Shown: positions 3,350 to 55,068 of the stretch, one piece after another
How the letters are laid out: each line of letters opens with the position of its first letter
Position numbering within the stretch: the stretch's first letter is position 1
Assembly: GCA_026709335.1 (NCBI GenBank)
Contig: JAPOTE010000069.1
Span: forward strand, 1-64,000
Length of the DNA stretch: 64,000 nucleotides
From: Bacteroidota bacterium
GTDB taxonomy: Bacteria; Bacteroidota; Rhodothermia; Rhodothermales; Bin80
Reading direction: 5' to 3'
Notes under the pieces: generated by a model
Told to the model about the DNA's origin: nothing
Databases searched by the model: none
Seen by the model: only the letters and a program-made list of their open reading frames with translations
Made by a program: the position numbers and the translations under genes

Positions 3350-5146
3350 TCAAGATAGTTCAGTACGTTTTTGATCAAACGTCCACCTCAGATACAAGGT
3401 CGAAGCAACAACCACAAGAAACATCAAGCCACTTGATAAGATATTCCCGAGAATCAAATATCCCACAGCAAACAGGCTGGTATATACAAGTAAAACCCCC
3501 GCTCCCCATTGACGTGCCATAGAAGCAATGGTCGCATCGGACTCAACTTCCGGATGGAGTGAGGCAATTGGTCGCCAGCCAGGGCCGGCAGGTCGAACAA
3601 GAGTAAAAAATTCTTCAAGAGTGGATTGACTGGTCGGTTTTGTCACAAATGTGGCCAACAGCCAGAGAATGGTGGTAACCGTCACGATCACGAACATGTT
3701 AGACGGAAACGGTTCCTGAATTCCAGGAACAGGAACCCCTAGCAATGTCAGGAAGACCAGAAGAATTGGAGCCAATGTAGCCACTAACTCGCTCCATGCA
3801 TTGATTCGCCACCAATACCATCTCAGAATCAAAACCGTTCCGAGTCCAGCTGACGCAGTGATAATCAGCGTCCATGCCTGACTAATAGATTCAAGTTGGG
3901 TGGCCAGAAGGATACTGAGTAACCCCACGATGAACGTGAGAATTCTGGAAATTAAAACGTAATGGCGTTCATCTCTGTCCGGTTTTACAAATCTGCGCCA
4001 GAAATCATTGACCAGATAAGAAACTCCCCAGTTTAATTGAGTGGAAATCGTACTCATGAATGCTGCCAGGAAGGCAGCGAAGACCATTCCGAGTACTCCA
4101 ACAGGTAGCACATCCCGCATGACCATGATGAATCCTTCACGAGATTGTTCAAGGTTGGGATACAGAATCAGTGAAGCCAGAGCAACAAGAATCCACGGCC
4201 ACGGGCGGATGCAGTAATGAGCAATCGTGAACAAAAGGGCAGAAAATGTTGCATCTCGCTCGCTGGCAGTCCCCATCATTCGCTGTGCACTATATCCACC
4301 ACCACCTGGTTCAGAGCCCGGATACCAGCTGCTCCACCATTGAATTCCAATGAATGCCACGAAAGCAGGAACAGATAATGCGAAGGCTGCTACCGCGCCA
4401 GATGCCTCTCCAATGGTTGGGAAGAATCGGAATGTTTCCGGTGGCAGTTGGGCTTTAAGGCCGGAAATTCCACCAATTTCAGGCATGCGAAGCACGAAAA
4501 TTGCCATAAGAACAGATCCAACCATGGCCAACGTAAATTGCATCACATCTGTTACAGCAACTCCCCATAATCCCGAGAGTAATGCAAAAATCGAGACCAG
4601 AATCACAAGCATGCTGACGATTACAAGAGATGCACTCATGGTGATGCCGCCAAAAGAAATGGACGATTTCCCGAAAATGGTGAGTTCAGGCCATAGTACA
4701 TGAATCGCAGTTTCCATCGCAAGAGAAACCCAGCCAATGATGATGATATTCAGTAATAGTCCAAAGTAAATTGCTTTGATTCCACGAAGCCACGCGGCAG
4801 CTTTTCCTGTATAACGAACTTCGACGAATTCAACATCTGTTTGAATTCCACATCGGCGCCACAGGCGGGCAAAAAAGAATACGGTCAACATCCCTCCAAA
4901 TGCAAAATTCCACCAAATCCAGTTACCGGCAATCCCGTCTTGAGCGACGAGTTCGGTGACCGCCATGGGCGTATCGGCTGCAAAGGTGGTTGCAACCATG
5001 CTGATGCCAGCCAGCCACCATGTCATCCGGCGTCCACTCAGAAAAAATTCAGAGGTGTTTAACCCGGCCCGTTTTGAGTAAAAAAGGGCAATCCCTACAA
5101 CAACTAGGAAGTAAACCGAAATGATAGCCCAATCAAGTAGTGTCAT
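3350..5146 (-). CDS. sodium:solute symporter family (SSS) transporter
   Basis: This 598-residue membrane protein has about 13 hydrophobic segments. The N-terminus (LLDWAIISVYFLVVVGIALF, then SEFFLSGRRMTWWLAGISM and VATTFAADTP) matches the sodium/solute symporter family (SGLT/PutP fold). The GRRMTWW-type loop after TM1 and the ATTFAADTP stretch on TM2 are family hallmarks and probably sodium-site elements. The substrate cannot be told from sequence. The gene stands alone. Its stop codon is 8 bp from the MITE-like element, and its start faces parC across a 310-bp divergent intergenic region. Confidence 0.85.
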   Translation of the reverse strand: MTLLDWAIISVYFLVVVGIALFYSKRAGLNTSEFFLSGRRMTWWLAGISMVATTFAADTPMAVTELVAQDGIAGNWIWWNFAFGGMLTVFFFARLWRRCGIQTDVEFVEVRYTGKAAAWLRGIKAIYFGLLLNIIIIGWVSLAMETAIHVLWPELTIFGKSSISFGGITMSASLVIVSMLVILVSIFALLSGLWGVAVTDVMQFTLAMVGSVLMAIFVLRMPEIGGISGLKAQLPPETFRFFPTIGEASGAVAAFALSVPAFVAFIGIQWWSSWYPGSEPGGGGYSAQRMMGTASERDATFSALLFTIAHYCIRPWPWILVALASLILYPNLEQSREGFIMVMRDVLPVGVLGMVFAAFLAAFMSTISTQLNWGVSYLVNDFWRRFVKPDRDERHYVLISRILTFIVGLLSILLATQLESISQAWTLIITASAGLGTVLILRWYWWRINAWSELVATLAPILLVFLTLLGVPVPGIQEPFPSNMFVIVTVTTILWLLATFVTKPTSQSTLEEFFTLVRPAGPGWRPIASLHPEVESDATIASMARQWGAGVLLVYTSLFAVGYLILGNILSSGLMFLVVVASTLYLRWTFDQKRTELS

Positions 5147-5456: not shown

Positions 5457-7772
5457 ATGGACCATGTAGCATCGGCACCGCTCCATGAAATTACAAATAC
5501 TAGATATCTCAACTATGCTCTATCAGTCATTACCAGTAGAGCGTTACCAGATATTCGAGATGGATTGAAGCCAGTTCAGCGGCGGATTCTGTATGCCATG
5601 TTTACGAGTCTTCGTCTGTATCCTGATGCAAGGTACAGGAAGAGTGCAACGATCGTCGGAGATACAATGGGGAAGTATCATCCACACGGCGACAGTGCAA
5701 TCTATGATGCAATGGCACGAATGGCGCAGTCTTTTGCATTACGTGATCCACTGATCGATGGACATGGTAATTTTGGCTCTATTGACGGGGATCGTCCCGC
5801 AGCAATGCGATATACAGAAGCGAAGCTGCTTCCATTGGCAATGTCTCTCCTGGAAGAGCTCCGTCAAAATACGGTTCCATTCAGGCCCAACTTTGACGCC
5901 ACATTGTCTGAGCCGGTTGTTCTGCCTGCCCGGATTCCTAACCTGTTGGTCAATGGTGCCACGGGGATTGCAGTTGGAATGGCAACCAATATTCCACCCC
6001 ATAACCTTGGTGAGGTTGTAAGTGGTGCGATCTATATGGTAGAATCATTGTTGAGACGGTCAGATCATACTTGGCCAACCAATGCAATCAATCGCTTACT
6101 TGACCGTCATATCCAGGGGCCGGACTTTCCGACCGGTGGCAGAATGATGAACTCCAAAGAGGAATTGCATCAGATTTACAAGAAAGGGGAAGGAACCATC
6201 ATTCTTCGCGGGACTTATCAGATTGAACATAAATCAAAAGTGGTCATCACCTCAATTCCGTATGCAATCAACAAGAGCGATTTGATCGAAAAAATTGCAA
6301 CTCATATTGCTAATGGAAAAGTTCCGCAATTACTTGATATTCGGGATGAATCTACGGATGAAATTCGAATTGTATTGGATCTGAAACGTGGCGCGAATGT
6401 GGAAGCTGCCATGGGATATCTATTCAAGTATACGCCTCTGCAGTCGCGCTTCCACGTCAATCTGACCTGCCTTCTTCCCACGATGAATCCCCAGATCTGC
6501 GAGCCAAAGCGGATCAATTTACAGGAAGCTCTGGAGCATTTTCTACTCTTTCGACTCGAGGTTGTCACTCGCAGGCTGAGGTACGAGTTAGAGCGCCTGG
6601 AAGAACGCATTCATATTCTCGAAGGGTTTGAAATCGTTTTCGATGCGCTGGACGAAGCCATCAAGATTATCCGATCTTCAAGAAATAGGGCCGATGGAGC
6701 CCAGCGTCTACGACACCGATTTATGCTTTCCGAGATCCAAGCCAATGCCATTCTTGATACGAGGCTCTATAGGTTGTCTCAGATTGAAATTCAGGCGGTG
6801 CGAGATGAACTTGAAGCCAAGCAGATCCGAGCTCAGGAGATTCGAGAGCTACTCGCAGATGAAGTCGCGCGATGGAAATTGGTTCGGGGAGAATTAAAAG
6901 AAATCAAACAGCAGTTTGCCACTAATCGGCGTACCACTATAGCATTGGGAGATGAAGAAAACTATGAATATTCTGAAGAAGATTTTATCGTAGATGAGGA
7001 TTCGGCGGTGATTGTTACACGATCAGGTTGGATCAAGCGGCAACGTTCCTATACTGAAATTGGAACGATTCGCGTTCGAGATGGAGATGAAGTCGGATGG
7101 GCTTTGGGGGCGGGAACACGCTCCACCGTTATTCTACTGACGAATTTTGGACAGACTTACACGATAAGAGTCAATGATATTGTCAGTACAACGGGGCATG
7201 GAACCCCGTTACAGAAGCTGTTTGACTTTAGAGATAAGGAACGGATCATCGGAGCAATTCCCTGTGATTCAAGGGCAGTTGGCCCAGCAATTTCATCCCC
7301 GGAGGAAGATCCCCTGGGATATTTGGTTGCGGTCACAATTCGCGGCATGGTACTTCAACAGCCGTTGAAACAGTTTTCTGATGTATCCACGCGTAAAGGA
7401 AGATTGTTCATGCGACTAGGTAAAGATGATCAAGTCTTCGGTGCGTGGCCCGTTATGGGAGATGAATTTGCTTGCCTCGTATCTCAAAAAGGGTATGCAC
7501 TGATTTTTGCGACACAAGAAATTCCTGTTATTGGTGGACCGGGGAAAGGAGTAATCGGAATGCGTTTGGGAGTTGAGGATACTTTGATAGGAGCAACCGT
7601 CAGTGCAAATATGCGTGATGGAGTGATCGTTCAAACACCAAGAGGTCGACAAGAAATTATCCGCAGAACCAAGTATGAGCCGGCGCGCAGAGGAGGCAAA
7701 GGTAGAAAAGTCATCATGCGTGGAGATCTGACGCCAGTGGCTCTTGAACCGATTGAATTACAGTTGACATGA
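5457..7772 (+). CDS. parC: type IIA DNA topoisomerase subunit A (topoisomerase IV ParC type)
   Basis: The 771-residue A subunit breaks and rejoins DNA. The catalytic tyrosine is Y119 in [10 protein letters not shown]. The quinolone-determining region reads [14 protein letters not shown], with S80 and D84 at the usual resistance positions in wild-type-like form. The [12 protein letters not shown] motif is near the N-terminus. RYTEAKL and the short C-terminal beta-pinwheel favour ParC over GyrA. However, the [12 protein letters not shown] stretch is GyrA-like and RRGGKGRK near the C-terminus resembles a displaced GyrA box, so a gyrase role remains possible. The stop overlaps the start of the B subunit by ATGA, implying translational coupling. 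GAGG sits just upstream of the ATG. Confidence 0.82.
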
Positions 7773-9691
7773 GCTCATATACAGGATCAGATATCATTGT
7801 TCTGGAAGGTCTTGAGGCAGTGCGTAAACGCCCGGGGATGTACATTGGCGGGACAGGCAAGCCAGGCCTCCATCATCTCCTCTGGGAAATCGTTGACAAT
7901 GGAGTTGATGAAGCCGTGAACGGGTATGCAGATACGATTAAAGTGATACTTCACGAAGATAGAAAGAGTGTCACCGTTGAGGACAATGGGCGCGGGATTC
8001 CGGTTGACCCTCATCCACAGAAGAAAATCCCTGCATTGGAAGTTATTCTCACTACCTTGCATTCCGGGGGTAAATTTGAAGGAGATCAATATGTAACCTC
8101 AGGCGGATTACATGGGGTAGGGGCCTCTGTAGTAAATGCTCTATCTAAGGAGCTGATCGCCAGAGTCAAACGAGATGGGAACACCTACGAACAGAAGTTT
8201 AAGCGTGGTCGCACCGTGAGCAAGTTGGAAGACCTACAAAAAAGAACACGTCTTACAGGAACAAGTATCTATTTTGTCCCGGATCCAGAGATCTTTGATT
8301 CAACAAAATTTGATGCAAAGCGAATTCGAGATCAACTGGAAATAAAATCCTTTTTGAATCGGGGATTACGCATCATTTTCCATGACAAAGGGGGAGGCGA
8401 AGAGGTAGAGTTTGTGCATGAGGGCGGGATTGTTGAATATTTGGAGTATTTAATCAACAAAAATGAAATCTTGCCAGTCCACCCGGAGACGTTTTCGATT
8501 CTTCAGGATACATTAGAAAATTCCGTCCGCTTGGAGGTTGCGCTGCAGTGGACCGAATCAACACGGGAATCTGTGAAATCCTATGTTAACGGAATTCCTA
8601 CACAAGATGGAGGAACACACGAGCAGGGGTTCAGGGATGCGGTCAGAACGGCGGTTCGTGCCTGGATGGAAACACACAATGCGATTCCTCGCGGAGTTGA
8701 GGTGACTCCGGATGATATACGGGAGGGGTTATTTGGTGTCATCAACATGTTCATGACCAATCCGCAATTCCAGGGGCAGACGAAGGATAAGCTTAATAAC
8801 CCTTCTGCCCGATCTTTGGTCAACGGGGTGGTTCGAGTGGCGCTTGAACAGTTTCTAAACACTCATCCATCTGCAAGTGATGCGATTGGAGCCAGGGTCC
8901 TCCAGTCAGCACGCGCACGGCAAGCGAGCCGAGCCGCTGCAAAATCAGCCAGATCAAAGGCACGCCAGCGAAGACGTCTCACACTTCCCGGAAAGCTGGC
9001 CGACTGCTCTTCTATGGATCCTGTTGAAGGAGAGCTCTTCATCGTAGAGGGCGATTCTGCCGGTGGTTCAGCAAAACAGGGCCGAGATCGCAAAACACAG
9101 GCTGTACTTCCGTTACGTGGAAAAGTATTAAACGCAGAGCAGGCAACTGTCAGGAAGCTGCAGAACAACTCGGAGTTGTCCAATGTCGTTCAGGCGCTTG
9201 GATGTGGCATGGGAACCAGCCTTGAACCCGACAAACTACGCTACCATAAAGTGATTCTTCTCATGGATGCAGATTCGGATGGGCATCATATCGCAACATT
9301 GATGTTAACTTTTTTTTACCGATATATGCGTCCACTCATTGACCGAGGACACATTTATGTGGCAGAGCCTCCGCTATATAGGTTGGATGCAGGGAAGCAG
9401 ACATACTGGGCTCTGGATGAAGAAGAAAAAGCTCGAATCGAAAAACGTTTACAACAAAAAAACTCGCGGATTAAAATTGAAGTGCAACGATTTAAGGGGC
9501 TGGGGGAAATGATGCCTCAGACGCTCAAAGAAACAACTCTGGACCCCGCTCGTCGCCGAATTCTGAAGGTTACTATTCCCGAAAAAACCCGGGCAGAAAA
9601 CACCATCTCCGGATTGATGGGGCGAGATGCATCTGTGCGTTATCGTTTCATCATGGAGAACGCGCGAAATGTGGATGATCTGGATCTATAG
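7769..9691 (+). CDS. parE: type IIA DNA topoisomerase subunit B (topoisomerase IV ParE type)
   Basis: The 640-residue ATPase subunit partners the A subunit encoded just upstream. The GHKL fold shows [15 protein letters not shown], the Mg-binding asparagine near residue 44 in [19 protein letters not shown], and the lid motif [16 protein letters not shown]. The TOPRIM domain shows [18 protein letters not shown] and the metal aspartates [21 protein letters not shown] and the length favour ParE over GyrB, which usually has GVGVSVVNALS. The A-then-B order with ATGA overlap means both subunits come from one message. Its last 41 bp overlap the end of the convergent EamA gene. Confidence 0.85.
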
Positions 9692-27679: not shown

Positions 27680-30676
27680 ATGTCAGAAGAAAACCAATCA
27701 AACGTGAATGCCTCCAAGAAGGAGGCAATGGATGAGTCAAAAACTGAAAATCATGCAGAAGTAAATGGAGCCCCGAGTGATGTTGATCATTCAGCAACTC
27801 CAGAACCTCAGAATTCTACTGATTCAGTAGATATTAATTCAGAAGACGCTAACTCAGAGGCCGCCTCCGAGTCGTCTATAGTATCATCCGAAGCTGATGC
27901 TGAATCGATTAACGAGGCTTCAACGGCGCCGGAATCTCCTGAGGCGGAATTATCTGAAACGCACTCCGAGCCGATTGAGCCAAGTGAGGCAGCCGTGGAA
28001 GTATCGGTAGAACCACCAGAGAAAATCAGTGAGGTAGCTGATGCGCCTGAAGTGGACGCTGAAATATCCGAGCAAGTTTCTCAATCAGTTTCTCCTGCCG
28101 AAACAGCTGTGGATTCATCCGAGACAGAAAATAATCTCGTTACCGAGACAGCTTCAGAGTCACCTGAAACAGAAAGTGAACTCAGTGAAGATGAAGTATC
28201 ATCCGTGTCGGAAGAATCCAGAGAGGAGCAGCCCAGGATAGGGTATACAGGAGAAATTATCGGAGAAGTGGTAAGCCTGTCTAGCCTGGAGGCTGAGCAA
28301 GATCCCTTGGAAGAGCAGCAGGCCGGAGCAGATGAATTGATCAAATTGATTGATGGCTCGCTCAGCAAGGTCTCGCAAGACGAAATCGTGTCAGGACGGA
28401 TCATATCCGTAGGCGAAAAAGATGTTGTGATTGATATCGGCTTCAAAAGTGACGGAGTGATCTCCAAGAGCGAGTTTTCCGGTGAAGTTGAGCCCGGAGA
28501 TGAGGTGGAGGTATATCTTGAGCGACTGGAAAACTATCATGGACAGCTTGTCCTCAGTAAAGGACGAGCAGAACAGATTCGTCGTTGGGAGCAGGTGGAA
28601 GAGGCTTTCCGTAATGGAACGGTATTGGAAGGGACGATTGTTCGTCGGATCAAAGGGGGCATGATTGTTGACCTCATTGACGGACTGGAAGCATTTTTGC
28701 CAGGGTCACAGATTGATATGCGGCCTGTTCGAGATTTTGATTCATACCTTGATCGCAAGATGGAATTCAAGATCGTTAAAGTCAATGCCGAAAATGAAAA
28801 CGTAGTCGTTTCTCATAAAGCATTGATTGAGCGTGAGTTAGCTTCTCAGCGTGAGAGTATTCTTTCCACCATGGAGACGGGGCAAGTTCTGGAGGGAGTT
28901 GCCAAAAATATCACCGATTTTGGCGTTTTTGTCGATTTAGGTGGAGTTGACGGGTTACTCCATATCACGGATCTCACTTGGGGGCGCATCTCGCACCCAA
29001 CCGAAGTTGTTTCACTGGATGAAGAACTGAAGGTTGTTGTATTAGAGTATGATCGAGAGCGGCAGCGTATTTCATTGGGATTGAGGCAATTGCAACCTCA
29101 TCCTTGGGAAAATATCGAGGAACGCTACAAGCCCGGGGACATTGTAGAAGGAAAAGTAGTCTCCATCACTGATTATGGTGCATTTCTTGAACTGGAACAG
29201 GGTATTGAGGGGCTTGTGCACGTCTCCGAAATGAGCTGGACAGGGCATATTCGCCATCCATCGCAACGTGTATCACTGGGCCAGGTAGTCAAGGTCTCCG
29301 TTCTCAGTATCGATCATGATACCCAAAAGATCTCGCTTGGAATGAAACAGTTCGAGGTCAACCCATGGGAGGGGATTGCAATGCGCTATCCCCCTGGAAC
29401 CGTACTCCGCGGAAGCGTACGCAATATCACACATTTTGGAGCGTTCGTCGAAATTGAGCCAGGGATTGACGGCTTGGTTCATGTGTCTGATTTATCCTGG
29501 ACGAAAACGATTCGCCACCCAAGTGAGCTGATCAAGAAGAGGCAGGAATTATCCGTTGTAGTCCTTGATGTAGATGAAAAGCGGCAACGAATTGCGCTTG
29601 GGCACAAGCAAATTGAAACAAATCCGTGGACAAACCTTGCGACAGTTTACGAGGTTGGAACGGATCACAAGGCCAAGGTGATTCGAATTGATCGTAGAGG
29701 ACTAACAGTTGAGCTTCCTCTTGAAGTGGAAGCTCTCGTACCCAGAAGCGAGCTTAAGAAGAAGAATGATGGCGGATTTCCACCTTATCAGGAGGGCGAT
29801 GAGCTAGATCTTCGAGTTATCCGGCTGGATCCGAATCAGAAGGAAATTGTGATGAGCGAAACTGCCAAGAAAAGGCAGGAGGAAGCCAAGGCTCGTGAGA
29901 AAGAGAATAAAGCCAAGCGTGCAGAGCGTCGTGAAGAAGAAAAAGCTGTTCGTCGTCATGCCGAACGAGAAAAAATCACTAGTGGACCGACGACCATTGG
30001 GGAGATGAGCGGGCTGGAATCCCTTAAGGAAAAAATGGAGGTGAGCCAAGAAATTGCTTCTGAGGCGAAAACTAAGATCAAAACGGGTACGTCAGCCGCG
30101 GAGGTTGCCGAAGAGACGACGGCGGTAGACAGTAAAGAAGATGTTCCTGATGATGCAACTGAGGTCGAATCGGATCCATCAGTCATCGACGAGGCCACGG
30201 AACAGGAGACTGTGGCTGAAATCTCAGAGGTGGACGATAAAGAAGAAGTTCCTGAGGAAGATGCTCCTGATAATGCAACTGAGGTCGAATCGGATCCATC
30301 AGTCATCGACGAGGCCACGGAACAGGAGACTGTAGCTGAAACCTCAGAGGCGGACGATAAAGAAGAAGTTCCTGAGGAAGATGTTCCTGATGATGCAACT
30401 GAGTCCGAATCAAATCTATCAGTCATTGACGAGGCCACGGAACAGGAGTCTGTAGCTGAAACCTCAGAGGCGGACAATAAAGAAGAAGCTCCTGTGGAAG
30501 ACGCTTCTGATGATACAAGTCCGCCCGATACGGACGCAGAGAATGTAGAGCCAGATTCTGAAGAATCCGTGCCAGAAGAGGCAATCGAGGACAAGGCAAC
30601 AAAAAAGGTAGCGGATCTATCTCAAGAAGAGGCATCTGAGCCTGAAACAGAAGATGGCGCAGATAAACAGGATTAA
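27680..30676 (+). CDS. rpsA: 30S ribosomal protein S1 with long acidic N- and C-terminal extensions
   Basis: The 998-residue S1 holds six S1 (OB-fold) domains, at about residues 235-305, 313-382, 400-468, 485-554, 572-640 and 659-730. Domains 3-5 are the most canonical (NITDFGVFVDLGGVDGLLHI and SITDYGAFLELEQGIEGLVH). S1 recruits mRNA to the 30S subunit. E. coli S1 is 557 residues. Here about 200 Glu/Ser-rich residues precede the first domain. A lysine/arginine-rich stretch (about 740-790) is followed by about 200 acidic residues ending in GADKQD, containing three 40-residue repeats. The extensions look disordered. The start has no Shine-Dalgarno. Confidence 0.93.
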   Translation: MSEENQSNVNASKKEAMDESKTENHAEVNGAPSDVDHSATPEPQNSTDSVDINSEDANSEAASESSIVSSEADAESINEASTAPESPEAELSETHSEPIEPSEAAVEVSVEPPEKISEVADAPEVDAEISEQVSQSVSPAETAVDSSETENNLVTETASESPETESELSEDEVSSVSEESREEQPRIGYTGEIIGEVVSLSSLEAEQDPLEEQQAGADELIKLIDGSLSKVSQDEIVSGRIISVGEKDVVIDIGFKSDGVISKSEFSGEVEPGDEVEVYLERLENYHGQLVLSKGRAEQIRRWEQVEEAFRNGTVLEGTIVRRIKGGMIVDLIDGLEAFLPGSQIDMRPVRDFDSYLDRKMEFKIVKVNAENENVVVSHKALIERELASQRESILSTMETGQVLEGVAKNITDFGVFVDLGGVDGLLHITDLTWGRISHPTEVVSLDEELKVVVLEYDRERQRISLGLRQLQPHPWENIEERYKPGDIVEGKVVSITDYGAFLELEQGIEGLVHVSEMSWTGHIRHPSQRVSLGQVVKVSVLSIDHDTQKISLGMKQFEVNPWEGIAMRYPPGTVLRGSVRNITHFGAFVEIEPGIDGLVHVSDLSWTKTIRHPSELIKKRQELSVVVLDVDEKRQRIALGHKQIETNPWTNLATVYEVGTDHKAKVIRIDRRGLTVELPLEVEALVPRSELKKKNDGGFPPYQEGDELDLRVIRLDPNQKEIVMSETAKKRQEEAKAREKENKAKRAERREEEKAVRRHAEREKITSGPTTIGEMSGLESLKEKMEVSQEIASEAKTKIKTGTSAAEVAEETTAVDSKEDVPDDATEVESDPSVIDEATEQETVAEISEVDDKEEVPEEDAPDNATEVESDPSVIDEATEQETVAETSEADDKEEVPEEDVPDDATESESNLSVIDEATEQESVAETSEADNKEEAPVEDASDDTSPPDTDAENVEPDSEESVPEEAIEDKATKKVADLSQEEASEPETEDGADKQD
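30140..30499 (+). repeat. three tandem 120-bp repeats inside rpsA
   Basis: Units at 30140-30259, 30260-30379 and 30380-30499 encode 40-residue blocks built on DVPDDATEVESDPSVIDEAT followed by EQETVAETSEADDKEEVPEE. Units 1 and 2 are nearly identical at DNA level; unit 3 has diverged (SESNLSVIDE, EAPVE). A partial fourth unit starts with DASDDTS at 30500. The repeats lie in frame in the acidic S1 tail, so copy number can change without a frameshift. Confidence 0.95.
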
Positions 30677-49176: not shown

Positions 49177-49902
49177 ATGTATAGAGTCGAACTTGAGGAT
49201 TTTGAGGGGCCACTTGATCTTCTGCTACTTCTCATTAACAGGCGAGAGATAGACATTTTTGACATACCGATTGCCCAGATCACCAGCGAATATCTGTCTT
49301 ATGTAGAGCTTATGGAGTCCATCAACTTGGATGGAGTAGCAGACTATATTTATTTTGCCGCCTTGTTAATCAGCATTAAAGCCCGAATGCTTCTTCCTAA
49401 GCCAAAAATAGATGCCGAGGAGGAAGATCTCGATCCAAGACAGCAACTCGTAGATCAACTACTTGAATATATCCGCTATAAAGATGTGGCGGAGGCGTTG
49501 AATATACAACTGGAAGAACGTTCACAACTCTTTACACGGGGACAAGCCTCCAGGCCCCCTGAAGCAGATACGCCAGAACAGGAGATTTTGGTAAAAACAA
49601 CCATATTTGACCTCATCAATGCACTCCGATTTGTTTTGGAAGGAGTTCCGGATGAGGAAACATATGCAATTTCACGCCAAGAGCACTCCGTAGAGGGGCA
49701 ATCCGAGTTTTTGCGTAGAGTTTTATTCACTGAAAAACGGGTAAATTTCAGCAATTTGGTAAGAGGTCAAACCAGAGCCTTCATCGTGGCCACTTTTCTG
49801 GCTGTATTAGAGATGGTTTATGCTCAGGAAATTCTTGTTTCCAACATTTATGATGACAATACTTTCGTGATTGAGCGAGAGCTAAGCGGCAATGAGTACT
49901 GA
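49177..49902 (+). CDS. scpA: segregation and condensation protein A
   Basis: The 241-residue kleisin of the SMC-ScpAB condensin begins VELEDFEGPLDLLLLLINRR and EIDIFDIPIAQITSEYL, the ScpA signature. The N-terminal helical domain binds the SMC neck. The central linker carries Glu-rich segments, and the winged-helix C-terminus is near VRGQTRAFIVATFLAVLEMV. The stop overlaps scpB by 11 bp. Confidence 0.93.
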   Translation: MYRVELEDFEGPLDLLLLLINRREIDIFDIPIAQITSEYLSYVELMESINLDGVADYIYFAALLISIKARMLLPKPKIDAEEEDLDPRQQLVDQLLEYIRYKDVAEALNIQLEERSQLFTRGQASRPPEADTPEQEILVKTTIFDLINALRFVLEGVPDEETYAISRQEHSVEGQSEFLRRVLFTEKRVNFSNLVRGQTRAFIVATFLAVLEMVYAQEILVSNIYDDNTFVIERELSGNEY

Positions 49903-50611
49903 GAAAAAAATAGGTTTCGACAATAGAGTTTCACTAGCGATGGTTCTTGAGGCTTTGGCCTTTGCCTCGGAAACTCCCGTAAGTGTTGACCAGGTCTGTA
50001 ATATATATGCCGAATTGAGTGGAGATGATGCAATCCCAAATGAGAAAGCAGTCGAGGATGCCCTGGAAACGCTGAACGCTTCCTTTGAGAAAGAGGGCCA
50101 TGCATTACGAATCCATACCTGGGCTGGTGGTCTTCGAATGGCAACCACCTCGGCGGTTGCTCCATTTCTTGAAGCCTTTTTTCGACGTGAACGAGCACGG
50201 CGTTTAACCCGTCCACTGATGGAAACCCTTGCAATCATTGCTTATAAACAACCATCAACCAGAGCAGAAATTGATGCGATTCGGGGTGTAGATTCAGGGT
50301 ATTCGATTCGAAAATTACTCTCACTGAATCTTGTTGCAATTACTGGAAGGGCAGAAGTTGCCGGCCGTCCAATGTTGTATGCTACCACCAACCGATTTCT
50401 CGAGGAATTTGGAATAAAAGATTTGAATGGGTTACCAACTTTGCGCGAGGCGGAAGAACTACTAGGAGACACAAATTTTGATCAAGAGCGCCTGCGTCTC
50501 CTGGTCGCAGATGGAGCGAGCAGTATTGATCAGAAAGTTGCCGATAATTCTCTTGATGATACAAAAATTTCTTCGCAACAGGAATTGTTATTAGAATCGA
50601 AAGATCAATGA
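49892..50611 (+). CDS. scpB: segregation and condensation protein B
   Basis: The 239-residue ScpB has two winged-helix domains: the first with NEKAVEDALETLNASFEKEG, the second with RPLMETLAIIAYKQPSTRAE, IDAIRGVDSGYSIRKLLSLN and GRPMLYATTNRFLEEFGI. It binds ScpA in the condensin complex. The last ~45 residues (FDQERLRLLVADGAS onward) form a variable tail that is repeated as a remnant at 54120-54302. The TGA overlaps an ATG of a dead rluB start (ATGA at 50608-50611). Confidence 0.93.
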   Translation: MSTEKKIGFDNRVSLAMVLEALAFASETPVSVDQVCNIYAELSGDDAIPNEKAVEDALETLNASFEKEGHALRIHTWAGGLRMATTSAVAPFLEAFFRRERARRLTRPLMETLAIIAYKQPSTRAEIDAIRGVDSGYSIRKLLSLNLVAITGRAEVAGRPMLYATTNRFLEEFGIKDLNGLPTLREAEELLGDTNFDQERLRLLVADGASSIDQKVADNSLDDTKISSQQELLLESKDQ

Positions 50612-50665
50612 CAAGCTCCGGTTCAAGTAGAGAAAAGTCAGGTATCTGAAGCGAAGTGACTCAAT
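50474..50665 (+). repeat. left copy of the duplicated scpB/rluB junction
   Basis: The last ~135 bp of scpB plus ~55 bp beyond align with 54147-54339. The first 130 nt give about 91 matches (70%) by hand count with no gaps. The homology runs through AAAAG-TCAGGT and CTCAAT after the gene end. The copies flank the inserted propeller/thioredoxin cluster. Confidence 0.8.
50608..50649 (+). pseudogene. dead 5' fragment of rluB
   Basis: An ATG overlapping the scpB stop (ATGA) opens a 13-codon frame, MTSSGSSREKSGI, then a TGA. It aligns with the start of the working rluB ([13 protein letters not shown] at 54280). It is read as the truncated beginning of the ancestral rluB left behind by the insertion. 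Confidence 0.55.
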
Positions 50666-50720
50666 AAACAATGAGGATGAAGAAATTCAAAGTTCATGTT
50701 AACCAAGTTTGTGATTTCAC

Positions 50721-51785
50721 TTACTTTTTAATATTCCATACAACCACTGTTGTGTCTTTCAACTGATAGATCTTTCCACTCTGATAAGTAGTCACGAAAG
50801 GGCCATCTTCTGGGATAGGCATTGAGTACTGGTAATCTCCGGTGGCGATGTCATATACATCGATTGCTCCGTATTTAGATGTATCCGGTGCACCTCGCGG
50901 CCGCCTTGAGAATATAAATAATTTATCATCTTCCACTATCAGACGGTCAGCATGAAAATATCGACCGACCTGACGTTTTGCTGGCATTCCTCCAAGTATG
51001 CGCTCCTCTATTTCAGGTTCTTCAAAATCATCGTTATACTCTATGGTTGTTCGGGCATATACTAATGAGCCACTTGGGTCGTACTGGAACAGTAATGGGT
51101 ATCGGGATAGCACATAGATTAGGTTCTCGCCGTATGTGTTTAGATTACCGCTTGTTCCCAAACCGTCCATGGTTCCAGCATCCACTAGGCTGGAAAAAGG
51201 AATCATTTCGTGGGCTGTGCCTTCGAAGCGAGATTCTAGTAACGAAGATTGGTTCGTGGTCGCATACAGGATATACTCCCGTCCTGTAGTAGTTCGTGTA
51301 TATCTAAAAGGCTGTGAATTAATCCGAACATCTTTTAGAAAAATTCCATCTATTCCAAAAATAGAAATCTTGAAACCATAGGTGTCCAATATATAAATCA
51401 TGGAGTCACCCGCTACGAAAAAATCCACAACCCCTTGTAGTTCACCGGGTCCCTCTCCACCACCTTCTTCTCCGTAGGTAACCAGATATTCTCCCGAAGG
51501 AGAAAATCTCAGAATCTTTTGAATACCAGAATCCAGTATATATATATAACCTTGATCGTCTACAACTACCTCTTGCGGATTATGCAGAAACAGGTCATTG
51601 GTGATTGGTATTGAGAATGATTTCTCGTAGGAAATCTCGAGAAAATTTCTTTCCGATACCCTCTGTTCTACCAGTTTATCAAGATAGAAGCGACCAAAAC
51701 GAATAGGGGTATTGTCCTTTGACTGACAAGAAGTCAGAAATAATGCACTCAAGATTACCCAAGTAAGGGCAGAAATCCAGCGCAT
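50721..51785 (-). CDS. 6-bladed beta-propeller lipoprotein (paralogue 1)
   Basis: The 354-residue protein has a lipoprotein signal (SALFLTSC, cysteine at 20). It is followed by NHL/6-bladed-propeller repeats, each with a GYIYILDSGIQKILRFSPSG-type blade: PQEVVVDDQGYIYILDSG, DSMIYILDTYGFKISIFG, ENLIYVLSRYPLLFQYDPSG, KLFIFSRR and YGAIDVYDIATGDYQYSMPI. Proteins of this sort are outer-membrane or periplasmic and common in Bacteroidota; ligand unknown. It is the last gene of a minus-strand cluster and is similar over its whole length to the 353-residue gene at 52395-53456. Confidence 0.8.
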   Translation of the reverse strand: MRWISALTWVILSALFLTSCQSKDNTPIRFGRFYLDKLVEQRVSERNFLEISYEKSFSIPITNDLFLHNPQEVVVDDQGYIYILDSGIQKILRFSPSGEYLVTYGEEGGGEGPGELQGVVDFFVAGDSMIYILDTYGFKISIFGIDGIFLKDVRINSQPFRYTRTTTGREYILYATTNQSSLLESRFEGTAHEMIPFSSLVDAGTMDGLGTSGNLNTYGENLIYVLSRYPLLFQYDPSGSLVYARTTIEYNDDFEEPEIEERILGGMPAKRQVGRYFHADRLIVEDDKLFIFSRRPRGAPDTSKYGAIDVYDIATGDYQYSMPIPEDGPFVTTYQSGKIYQLKDTTVVVWNIKK

Positions 51786-51818
51786 GAATCTATCGGTACA
51801 GGTTTAGTATCACTTTGC

Positions 51819-52413
51819 TCAAGGAACCGGTTCTATTCGAGTGGCTTGGTCTTTTTTGCTTGAGAATAAAACCTGTAAGACCTCCTTTTCAATCTCTTCC
51901 GGAAGTTGTCCCTCCCAAATGTGTTGTACTATCGCCTGATGATTCATCAACATGATTGTGGGTACATAATAGGTTTTAATCTCCTGAAAAGATAGTGCTG
52001 TGACTGTATCCACATATATCCCCGCATTTTCAAGTAAATCTTTTTGTAACCGTATTGAACTACTCGTATCTACGGCAACAATCCACGGGGAGTGTATATC
52101 GATCCTGATCTCGTAGTTCAACCAAGTTCTTGTAAAACGGGTGACTTAGTTTGCAGTAAGGGCAACCTGGAGATAATGCAAACAAAAGCAAACCATCTTT
52201 ATGGTCGCCTGCAAATGCTTCCAAGTGTAGCAAAGTATCTCCAACACCCAAAGTACCGGACATTTGTTCAGGAGTGAGTTGAAGCGATATAAAAGTATAG
52301 ATTGCAAAACCAAGAACAACGATAAATAGTAGGGCGTGAATGCCTTTTTCTGCAAATGCGCTTTTGATGTTGCAGGAATTTTTCCCATTCAGGCTTACCA
52401 CTTCATCTCCCAT
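51819..52413 (-). pseudogene. membrane-anchored thioredoxin-fold protein, split by a one-base frameshift
   Basis: Two overlapping frames encode the two halves of one protein. The N-terminal part has a membrane helix (HALLFIVVLGFAIYTFISLQ) and a redox motif FALSPGCPYCKLSHPFYKNL (CPYC). The C-terminal part continues WIVAVDTSSSIRLQKDLLEN and ends with a cis-proline segment, TYYVPTIMLM, as in TlpA/thioredoxin folds. Removing one G from the G4 run at 52087-52090 restores a continuous ~197-residue protein through YTLPWIVAVD. It could be a true pseudogene or a sequencing/assembly error. The N-terminal part overlaps the propeller gene at 52395 by 19 bp, so it is co-transcribed between the two propellers. 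Confidence 0.75.
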
Positions 52414-53456
52414 ACGACTACTGTTGAATCTTGTGTCTGATAGACCTTGCCATTATGGACAGTGGTATAGTACCGTCCTTTTTCAGGTAGGGACAGGGAG
52501 TATTGATAATCCCCATTTCGTGCATCATATACATCAAAAGCTCCGAATGCTGATGTATCAGGAGCCCCTGCCGGATTGACTGCAAGTACAAAAAGTTCGT
52601 TATTTTCTATTGAAAGAGGAATGGAATACAAGGATCGACCAACTACTCGTTGGACTTGCATTTCTCCCAAAATAGTTTCTTCTATCTCGGGTTTTCGGAA
52701 ATTATCATTATAATCCACTGTTGCCCGGGCATATACAAGTGATCCATCTGGTTCATATTGCAACAATAATGGATAACGGTGCAAGACATATAATAGATTT
52801 TCGCCATATGCCTTAATATCACCACTTGTTAGCATATCAGTTTCGTTGCCCACAAGGTCAGGAAAAGAAATCACTTTGGTAGAACGATTTCCAAATCGAG
52901 TTTCTAATAAGGGCAACCTGGGATCACTGTAAGAGAACAGGACATACTCTCGTCCTGTGGCAGTTTGTTCATACCGCCATGGTTGCGCTCTTTCAGGTTT
53001 TTCTTTTTGAAACACGCCATCTATTGAAAAATAAGCAACCTTGTAATCATAAGCGTCCATGACATACACCATGGAATCCCCCATTACACCGAAAGCACCT
53101 ATGTGAACAATTTCACCGGGTCCTTGTCCACGACCATCCTCTCCATACGAGGTGAGGTATTCGCCGGTAGGAGAAAATCTTAAGACCTTACGGGCTCCGT
53201 GGTCCATCACGTGTATATATCCATGATCGTCTATAATCGTAACGGTCGGGTCGTAAAGAAAAACATCGTTTGTGGCTGGAATTGTGAACAGCTTCTCATA
53301 GGAAACTTCCGAAAATTGTCTTTCCGAAACAACCTGTTCTACTAATCCATCAAGATAGAAAGGGCCATAGGGAGTGCGGATATCTTCTTTTGTGCGACAA
53401 GAGGTCAGAAGTAGTGCCATGAAGCTTATCTGAGTAAGAAAGAAAGTCCTGTACAT
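52395..53456 (-). CDS. 6-bladed beta-propeller lipoprotein (paralogue 2)
   Basis: The 353-residue lipoprotein (FMALLLTSC, cysteine at 20) has the same repeat plan as the other propeller in the cluster: TVTIIDDHGYIHVMDHGARK, VLRFSPTGEYLTSYGEDGRG, DSMVYVMDAYDYKVAYFS, ENLLYVLHRYPLLLQYEPDG and FDVYDARNGDYQYSLSLPEK. The pair clearly arose by duplication. It is the first gene of the cluster; its promoter should lie in the 660-bp gap upstream, which holds a 22-bp palindrome. Confidence 0.8.
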   Translation of the reverse strand: MYRTFFLTQISFMALLLTSCRTKEDIRTPYGPFYLDGLVEQVVSERQFSEVSYEKLFTIPATNDVFLYDPTVTIIDDHGYIHVMDHGARKVLRFSPTGEYLTSYGEDGRGQGPGEIVHIGAFGVMGDSMVYVMDAYDYKVAYFSIDGVFQKEKPERAQPWRYEQTATGREYVLFSYSDPRLPLLETRFGNRSTKVISFPDLVGNETDMLTSGDIKAYGENLLYVLHRYPLLLQYEPDGSLVYARATVDYNDNFRKPEIEETILGEMQVQRVVGRSLYSIPLSIENNELFVLAVNPAGAPDTSAFGAFDVYDARNGDYQYSLSLPEKGRYYTTVHNGKVYQTQDSTVVVWEMKW

Positions 53457-53566
53457 CAGCTACGGAACGGCCTGTAATATATCTGTGCAATTGTTCGATT
53501 GAAACTAGTTGCTTCACAGATACCCACCACGGTCAATCACACTTTTGCATTTCATTTTAGCAGATA

Positions 53567-53588
53567 GATTGCTATGGCCATAGCAATC
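53567..53588. promoter_or_regulatory. 22-bp perfect palindrome, possible operator
   Basis: GATTGCTATGG is followed at once by its exact reverse complement. It lies 111 bp upstream of the propeller paralogue 2 start, and the GTGCAATT-TTCGA repeats flank it. A dimeric repressor or activator site is the simplest reading; a fold-back transcript end is also possible, since no T-run follows on either strand. Confidence 0.5.
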
Positions 53589-53876
53589 AGCTTGTGCACA
53601 ATAAAGGTGCAATTATTCGAGCCAAGCGGGTATTTTTAGAAAGCAATGCTCTCTCATATAAGAAGCGTCTGGGTTCATATTCTTCATGTATTGCATATTC
53701 TCTTCGAATGGGATTGATTGTAGTTACTTGATTCTAGTAGCAATATCCGTGCCAAAATTTTATTCGTGCAAAAAATCTATCTACAAGAGATATATCTGAG
53801 GGACTATCAGGATACAAATTTATTGCGCGGGAATATATGCCATGACTGTTGACAATTTTGTCGTCAGCCTACGGCA

Positions 53877-53899
53877 GGGGAAACTCTTTTCGTTTCCCC
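53877..53899. terminator. perfect 8-bp hairpin in the gap
   Basis: GGGGAAAC / GTTTCCCC with a 7-nt loop. A T-rich loop (TCTTTTC) but no downstream T-run on either strand. It may be a terminator remnant or a structured RNA stem; function unknown. Confidence 0.35.
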
Positions 53900-54119
53900 C
53901 TATAGTTTGTCAAATCGACGTGTAAGCTGAGTGCAGACTGGCTGGCCTCAATTCTATGAGTGAACTTAAAGATCCACATATCAATTAAACAAAGTCAGAA
54001 AAGTTCAAATGTTCGTGGCAATAGTAATAAGGGGCACTAATGGCATTGTGATTAACTCCAAACAATTACATTCATCGATCCATCTCCAACCTCCTCTCCC
54101 ATTGTTGAAGCCGTGATCT

Positions 54120-54302
54120 ATGCGCATTTTGTTACAGAAATTCCGAAATTTTGATCAAGAACGTTTACGCCTCATGATGACAGGTAGGTTGGGTAGCAGT
54201 GATCAGAAGGCTATCGATCATTCTCTGGATGACGCAGAAATTTCTTCATGGCTGGAATCATTATCAAATTCAGAAGGATATGACGCATCCAGAGCTAAGT
54301 AA
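54120..54302 (+). pseudogene. remnant of scpB C-terminus
   Basis: The 60-residue open frame contains NFDQERLRLMMTGRLGSSDQ and KAIDHSLDDAEISS, matching the scpB tail NFDQERLRLLVADGASSIDQ. The rest of scpB is absent. It ends inside the start of rluB, reproducing the overlap expected for the ancestral scpB-rluB junction. It is not a functional gene by itself. Confidence 0.75.
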
Positions 54303-54339
54303 ACAAAAAGATCAGGTGCTTGAGACGGGGCGGCTCAAT
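54147..54339 (+). repeat. right copy of the duplicated scpB/rluB junction
   Basis: This is the partner of 50474-50665 with about 70% identity. This copy keeps the working rluB start, and its scpB portion is the decayed part. Confidence 0.8.
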
Positions 54340-55068
54340 CGTTACGTTGCGCGTGCAGGGGTTTGTTCTCGCAGGAATGCAGACGGACTTATCGAAAGCG
54401 GTCAGGTTCGGGTAAATGGAAAGGTAGTCCATGAATACTGGTACAACGTCAAGAAGGGAGATCAAGTAACCGTGAAAGGAAAGGAAATTTCACCTCGACA
54501 GTTTTTGTATATACTGCTGAACAAGCCCATGAATACGATTACTACGGTTAAAGATCAAAGGGGGCGTAAGACGGTTCTTGATTTGATTGAAATAGATGGA
54601 GGAACCAGCGGATTGTTTCCTGTAGGGAGACTTGATCGTAATACTACAGGTGCGCTGATTCTAACCTCGGATGGCTCCTTGGGGCACCGATTAATGCATC
54701 CGAGTTTTCAAGTTCCTAAACAATATCGGGTATGTACAAAAGCTCCGGTCCGGAAGAATCATCTTGATCAACTTCAGCGTGGTATCATTTTGGAGGATGG
54801 TCCTGCAGTATGTGATCGTGCCGTATATGTACAGTCGGAGAATCTATACGAAATTGGAATTGAGTTGCATGAGGGACGAAATCGTCAGATTCGACGGATG
54901 TTAGCCGCACTGGATCACGAGGTTGTTGCTTTGGAGCGAGTGTCGTATGCCGGATTGACGACACGAAGTTTGCGACGTGGAAAATGGCGTGAACTCACAG
55001 AAAAAGAAATACGTAAACTATATCGTATGGTAGGACAATTTAACCAACCACCAAACAACCTCAAATGA
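54280..55068 (+). CDS. rluB: pseudouridine synthase, RluB/RsuA family
   Basis: The 262-residue rRNA pseudouridine synthase has an S4 domain at the N-terminus ([33 protein letters not shown]). The catalytic aspartate lies in [39 protein letters not shown] is the RluB/RsuA signature. The ATG at 54280 was chosen because family similarity starts just after it; an upstream start at 54199 lies in the scpB remnant. The stop overlaps guaB by ATGA. Confidence 0.9.

Follow-up and report, generated by a model that had tools for sequence, protein, structure and literature searches.

The window analyzed here, a 64-kb stretch of Bacteroidota DNA, carries about 3.5 kb of accessory DNA between the genes scpB and rluB, bracketed by two copies of the junction of these genes. 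The complete scpB (positions 49892 to 50611, plus strand; Pfam SMC_ScpB, E = 1.5e−45) has its 3′ end in the left copy of the repeat (A; 50473 to 50672, plus strand, the edge near 50672 being approximate). The intact rluB (54280 to 55068, plus strand; Pfam S4 and PseudoU_synth_2), whose alignment to congeners starts at the first residue, begins in the right copy (A′; 54146 to 54345, plus strand). The inserted DNA between the copies (X; 50673 to 54145) is missing between scpB and rluB in relatives.

Two copies of one gene junction

The two copies are homologous. From a hand count of about 91 identities in the first 130 positions, the preliminary description had proposed that 50474 to 50665 (192 bp) align with 54147 to 54339 (193 bp). 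The count is exact (91/130, ungapped), and the global alignment has 135 identities over 188 aligned positions. The local alignment score of the two copies is 78, far above the maximum of 35 obtained from 2000 dinucleotide shuffles. A repeat search of the window recovers an ungapped direct repeat at 50473 to 50603 and 54146 to 54276 (70% identity), and BLAST within the window pairs 50473 to 50612 with 54146 to 54284 (71%, E = 1.7e−10). This is the sole long direct repeat flanking non-paralogous genes in the whole 64 kb. In a BLAST search of the 2.81-Mb genome to which the window belongs, the other copy is the sole second match (E = 7.7e−11), and a third copy is absent.

The repeat consists of the scpB 3′ end and the rluB 5′ end, and in each copy one half is intact while the other decays. 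The left copy completes scpB and continues into a dead rluB start of 13 codons (50608 to 50649, plus strand) that has a 2-nt deletion. The right copy starts the functional rluB and retains an scpB tail remnant (54147 to 54302, plus strand), the frame of which passes through the rluB ATG at 54280 and reaches a stop at 54300 to 54302. Thus, the earlier view that each copy is functional on one side and dead on the other stands. The ATGA stop/start overlap, which had been assigned to the right copy, lies in the left one, at 50608.

Relatives preserve the empty site. All genomes compared are drafts, one per species, and the assembly of the window genome has 125 contigs. The genes scpB and rluB are adjacent, single-copy, and uninterrupted in all nine congeners. 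They are adjacent in 25 of the 29 relatives with loci compared; for the other four, the short stretch compared gave no match to rluB. ScpB identity to congeners is just ~65 to 70%. Among the genomes compared, the window genome alone has the pair interrupted. Because the junction is uninterrupted in the congeners, the event amounts to an insertion of ~3.5 kb together with a target duplication of ~200 bp. These comparisons also bear out the suggestion that cargo on the opposite strand split a conserved gene pair and left both genes usable.

Genes of the insert

All three genes of the insert are on the minus strand. Propeller lipoprotein A (50721 to 51785; DUF5128, six-bladed beta-propeller, lipobox LTSC; Pfam PF17170, E = 4.1e−7, 29.9 bits) and propeller lipoprotein B (52395 to 53456; DUF5128; PF17170, E = 1.5e−5, 24.8 bits) both score above the PF17170 gathering cut-off of 22.9 bits and share about 53% amino acid identity. 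Between them lies a frameshifted thioredoxin-like gene with a CPYC motif (51819 to 52413), which is split into open reading frames (ORFs) at 52060 to 52413 and 51819 to 52121 in different frames. Its homologue in genome G010 occupies a single frame and matches Thioredoxin_2 below the gathering score (E = 4.5e−4). (Here and below, G codes denote genomes, with G000 for the window genome, L codes denote loci, and C codes denote contigs.) The same genome as the window has a paralogous propeller-thioredoxin-propeller cluster on contig C32. The thioredoxin genes of both clusters change frame, at different positions (window 51819 to 52413; L063:5989-6527).

The remaining 689 bp of the insert (53457 to 54145), between the start of the propeller B gene and the right copy, are without a convincing gene. 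This stretch must contain whatever currently promotes rluB; the Bacteroidota-type promoter pattern (TTTG/TAnnTTTG) has zero matches in the window. The GC content of the insert is slightly below that of its flanks. As the preliminary description had noted, no transposase or integrase ORF and no terminal inverted repeat is seen in 50673 to 54145. Elsewhere in the window, a tandem repeat of ~120-bp units (30137 to 30518) occupies the acidic C-terminal region of an apparent ribosomal protein S1 (27680 to 30676).

Gene-end duplications elsewhere in the genus

The anatomy recurs at other genes. We searched about 75 propeller-bearing stretches. Four long contigs of the congener G006, picked for their length and totaling 870 kb, were tiled afterward. 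Among the propeller-bearing loci, the 3′ end of a Na/Ca exchanger gene is duplicated in G006 (L064; 399 bp, 93% identity; 3955 to 4352 and 7409 to 7807) around a propeller gene and a peptide ORF. The exchanger 3′ end in G004 is associated with different cargo, a SocA/Panacea antitoxin-like gene. The exchanger site has been hit more than once, with G004 and G002 having their own exchanger fragments and other cargo. At L138 of G006, the 3′ end of a gamma-glutamyltransferase (GGT) gene is duplicated (314 bp, 90%), and a second, older fragment is present. Here (L138:1424-4802), the GGT 3′ end and a small convergent membrane ORF occur in triplicate, with a propeller gene only between copies 1 and 2. 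The longest repeat, of the TRAP transporter genes DctQM (L124/L183; 1284 bp, 96%; in G009 at L183 4752 to 6034 and 8014 to 9294), places dctQ and a truncated dctM on both sides of a propeller gene. Further cases are a glycosyltransferase 5′ end (L078; 369 bp, 82%), a repeat inside an RND gene (L103; 98 bp, 87%), and a repeat near accC in G008 (L113; 120 bp, 73%). Other congeners have further gene-end duplications around accessory DNA. Flank matches at L083, L097, and L111 were dropped as repeats internal to the cargo or among propeller paralogues.

A TlpA-propeller cassette is common to L078 and L113 (92% identity) at different loci. We considered and rejected a propeller-specific mobile cassette as the unit of insertion, because the cassette edges differ from the repeats and other inserts are without a propeller. 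At L113:7447-13279, a class II ribonucleotide reductase locus 3′ of accC is apparently broken and forms a mosaic around a TlpA-peptide-propeller cassette; the ribonucleotide reductase stretch is colinear in G003 and in the window genome. Small, apparently secreted cysteine-rich peptides adjoin propeller and thioredoxin genes at L063:7631-7918 (minus strand), L113:8973-9302 (plus strand), and L111:15882-16202 (minus strand), and none of these peptides has an NCBIfam match.

In the 870 kb of G006, seven gene-end duplications (73 to 399 bp) flank accessory DNA, and three of the seven enclose propellers. Two of them, both on C11, were known before the tiling, and five were new. The cargo is diverse. 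On C18, the pair at 8654 and 13729 encloses DUF1501 and PSD1/PSCyt genes, and the pair at 174057 and 179486 encloses a gene for a large DUF6807/DUF7133 protein. A third C18 pair (23966 and 30248), at the accC 3′ end, encloses genes for an Ada-type methyltransferase and a PLP decarboxylase, a group II intron fragment, and a transposase fragment. Oxidoreductase-like genes lie between the repeats at C11 104745 and 110516. On C8, the convergent junction of a transporter gene and a topoisomerase-subunit gene is duplicated (96686 and 104078, extending to 104417; loci L209 and L210; 340 bp, 95%) around 7 kb with insertion sequence genes, a propeller gene, and a large serine recombinase gene (102689 to 104041) beside the right repeat. 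In contrast to these seven cargo-bearing cases, there is essentially one cargo-free gene-end tandem duplication in the same 870 kb.

The same scan of one region of one other species (Escherichia coli K-12, 3.00 to 3.45 Mb, 450 kb) found zero gene-end duplications around cargo. It yielded three pairs: one short intergenic repeat and two pairs inside neighboring genes, yhaH/yhaI and degQ/degS, which are probably paralogous neighbors. Under equal rates, the chance of zero cases in E. coli is 0.054, and the enrichment relative to E. coli is suggestive, not proven.

The two copies at each site are close kin. Both scpB tails of the window have the pattern SS.DQK..D.SLDD..ISS, which the congeners are without, and A and A′ are sisters in a tree against G002, G004, and G006. 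The fragment and the intact copy are likewise sisters for the G006 exchanger, the G004/G002 exchanger (a duplication event separate from that in G006), the G006 GGT, and the G009 TRAP DctQM. Changes polarized with outgroups and pooled over pairs (DctQ was left out, both its copies being complete) are distributed over codon positions 1, 2, and 3 as 15/13/11 in fragments and 4/3/18 in intact copies (Fisher’s test, P = 0.0008). Given that the copies are sisters relative to the congeners, they descend from a duplication within the lineage and not from two donor alleles. The pattern of changes points to decay of the redundant copy since then.

Possible routes of gene entry

We propose that accessory DNA entered the scpB-rluB junction together with duplication of ~200 bp of it, in one coupled event that produced the arrangement A-X-A′, and we regard this as likely (a probability of roughly 70%). 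The scarcity of cargo-free gene-end tandem duplications is what makes duplication and insertion look coupled. As ~3.5 kb of propeller-thioredoxin-propeller DNA entered, the scpB 3′ end and rluB 5′ end would have been copied simultaneously, so that the left copy could finish scpB and the right copy could start rluB. Neither gene would be lost, and the redundant halves would be left to decay. The A-X-A′ anatomy calls for joints on opposite sides of a short stretch of target, one end of the insert meeting its far side and the other its near side. The opposite joining would delete that stretch and break the gene, and selection would then retain the events that duplicate.

Two routes could produce such joints. 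DNA that carries X and a short homologous piece of the junction might circularize and integrate by a single crossover, or replication might leave A by a template switch, copy X, and return upstream of A. Provided that insertion and duplication were coupled, single crossover of a circle, or an equivalent template switch, is tentatively our first choice for the molecular step. Natural transformation makes a poor candidate: none of the 13 sampled genomes of the family has ComEC (PF03772), whereas all 8 sampled from other families of the order have it, and the window genome lacks DprA. Ku is missing in all sampled genomes of the family, and MutS is present. The lack of ComEC and Ku argues against both competence and end-joining.

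Several observations weigh against a single coupled event or its details. We infer the molecular step, and at 70% identity the junctions of the window are too old for microhomology to be read. For the window insert, no donor copy in a different sequence context was found. A scan of genome contigs with propeller A returned just one weak, distant match. For scpB alone, the polarized changes (6/4/3 versus 2/3/7) do not differ significantly (P = 0.11). The GGT triplication in G006, with cargo at only one of its two junctions and units 2 and 3 in tandem without cargo, also fits a two-step history, in which the junction initially underwent ordinary tandem duplication and cargo arrived afterward between the copies, where insertion had become harmless. 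The preliminary description had leaned toward such a history, namely, tandem duplication followed by recombination, either homologous or illegitimate. Its duplication is real and within-lineage, and bacterial cultures commonly contain tandem duplications (PMC3784515). Its order of events sits poorly with the near absence of cargo-free gene-end tandems beside seven cargo-bearing ones in G006, and short tandem duplications are unstable, which makes waiting for a second event unlikely. We therefore judge the two-step history unlikely, while allowing it some weight.

A further explanation is additive import: the donor, a related species, would have supplied one junction copy beside the recipient’s own, with their divergence preceding arrival. 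This xenologous origin was first suggested by an unpolarized codon-position test, in which raw fragment-versus-intact counts are rich in third-position differences (exchanger, 6/4/18; GGT, 1/2/11). Trees and outgroup polarization reversed the suggestion: fragments are sister to the intact copy of their own lineage, and first- and second-position changes fall mainly on the fragment branch. Third-position sites that are impossible to polarize leave some room for import, against which the lack of ComEC in the genus also speaks, and we now consider it a weak rival and quite improbable. Prophage e14 restores its target gene end at icd, and the repeat could by analogy be the relic of an integrase-borne island that brought its own gene-end copy to restore the target and has since lost its integrase. 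Gene 3′ ends are frequent targets, and the large serine recombinase of the C8 case in G006 lies directly beside A′. However, a recombinase ORF is missing from the window insert and from most other inserts read, and not all targets are gene 3′ ends: L078 has a gene start, the window an operon junction, and other cases convergent junctions. The duplications range from 73 to 1284 bp, a common end sequence was not noticed, and the phylogeny places each fragment in the host’s own lineage. An island relic therefore appears slightly more improbable still than import. The draft state of the assembly could raise the thought of chance similarity or misassembly, for which we see a negligible chance given the shuffle scores, a divergence of 30% that is incompatible with misassembly, and like cases in other assemblies.

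Related systems are known elsewhere. The name “insertion with long target duplication” comes from a comparison of two Helicobacter pylori genomes (Nobusato et al. 2000, Gene 259:99, as described in PMC1643837), and restriction-modification systems are reviewed as having long, variable target duplications on the order of 100 bp (PMC3874152). As in those cases, accessory genes here lie between long, variable direct repeats of the target, the targets stay usable, and a transposase is not needed to account for the repeats. The H. pylori cargo is mainly restriction-modification genes. Such genes, frequent but not obligatory in this kind of insertion, do not occur in the window insert, which carries the two DUF5128 propellers and the thioredoxin-like gene. 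Across the genus, the cargo comprises propeller lipoproteins, thioredoxins, small peptides, PSD1/DUF1501 genes, and an antitoxin-like gene, between repeats of 73 to 1284 bp and in a clade without ComEC. Thus, the window has the defining anatomy of insertion with long target duplication (target repeats of ~200 bp) and its empty site, with other cargo. In E. coli conjugation, single crossover of recircularized fragments gave duplications of 109 to 950 bp (PMC3240628), and foreign DNA was likewise flanked by target duplications. That experiment was done in the laboratory, with selection and with a plasmid as the donor. Circular intermediates were not seen in the present analysis. Homology-facilitated illegitimate recombination, as outlined in the introduction of the same paper, joins foreign DNA to a short homologous stretch, and the DNA enters at one place, as here; the usual product outlined there is insertion with target deletion, the opposite of what the window has. 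Transposed genes in Arabidopsis are flanked by genic direct repeats copied from the gene at the target site, and a circle-insertion model has been proposed for them (PMC2869330). The moved genes there are flanked by copies of target-site sequence as here, in a plant, with usually shorter repeats and in tandem-array gene families. The window differs from a transposon or insertion sequence in having neither transposase nor terminal inverted repeats and a duplication of ~200 bp instead of a few. It differs from an integrase-borne island in that 50673 to 54145 contain no site-specific recombinase, the only such gene being the serine recombinase of the C8 case.

How genes enter dense operons without breakage is an old and still largely unsolved question. 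The description of long target duplications, mainly around restriction-modification genes of H. pylori, dates from 2000 and left the mechanism open. What would be new here is their recurrence through one genus without ComEC and Ku, over a broad range of cargo and repeat lengths. More speculatively, the family may have a dedicated, undescribed route of gene gain that places accessory cassettes at gene ends and copies 70 to 1300 bp of target; transposase, integrase, competence, and Ku would have no part in it, and propeller-peptide-thioredoxin cassettes would be its favored cargo. We think this doubtful. A genus in which the examples range from young to old, carry several types of cargo, and occur without ComEC or Ku is a natural system in which to study the mechanism. 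The flanking repeats offer a simple signature by which other acquired clusters may be recognized, and recombination between them would allow a cluster to be lost cleanly.

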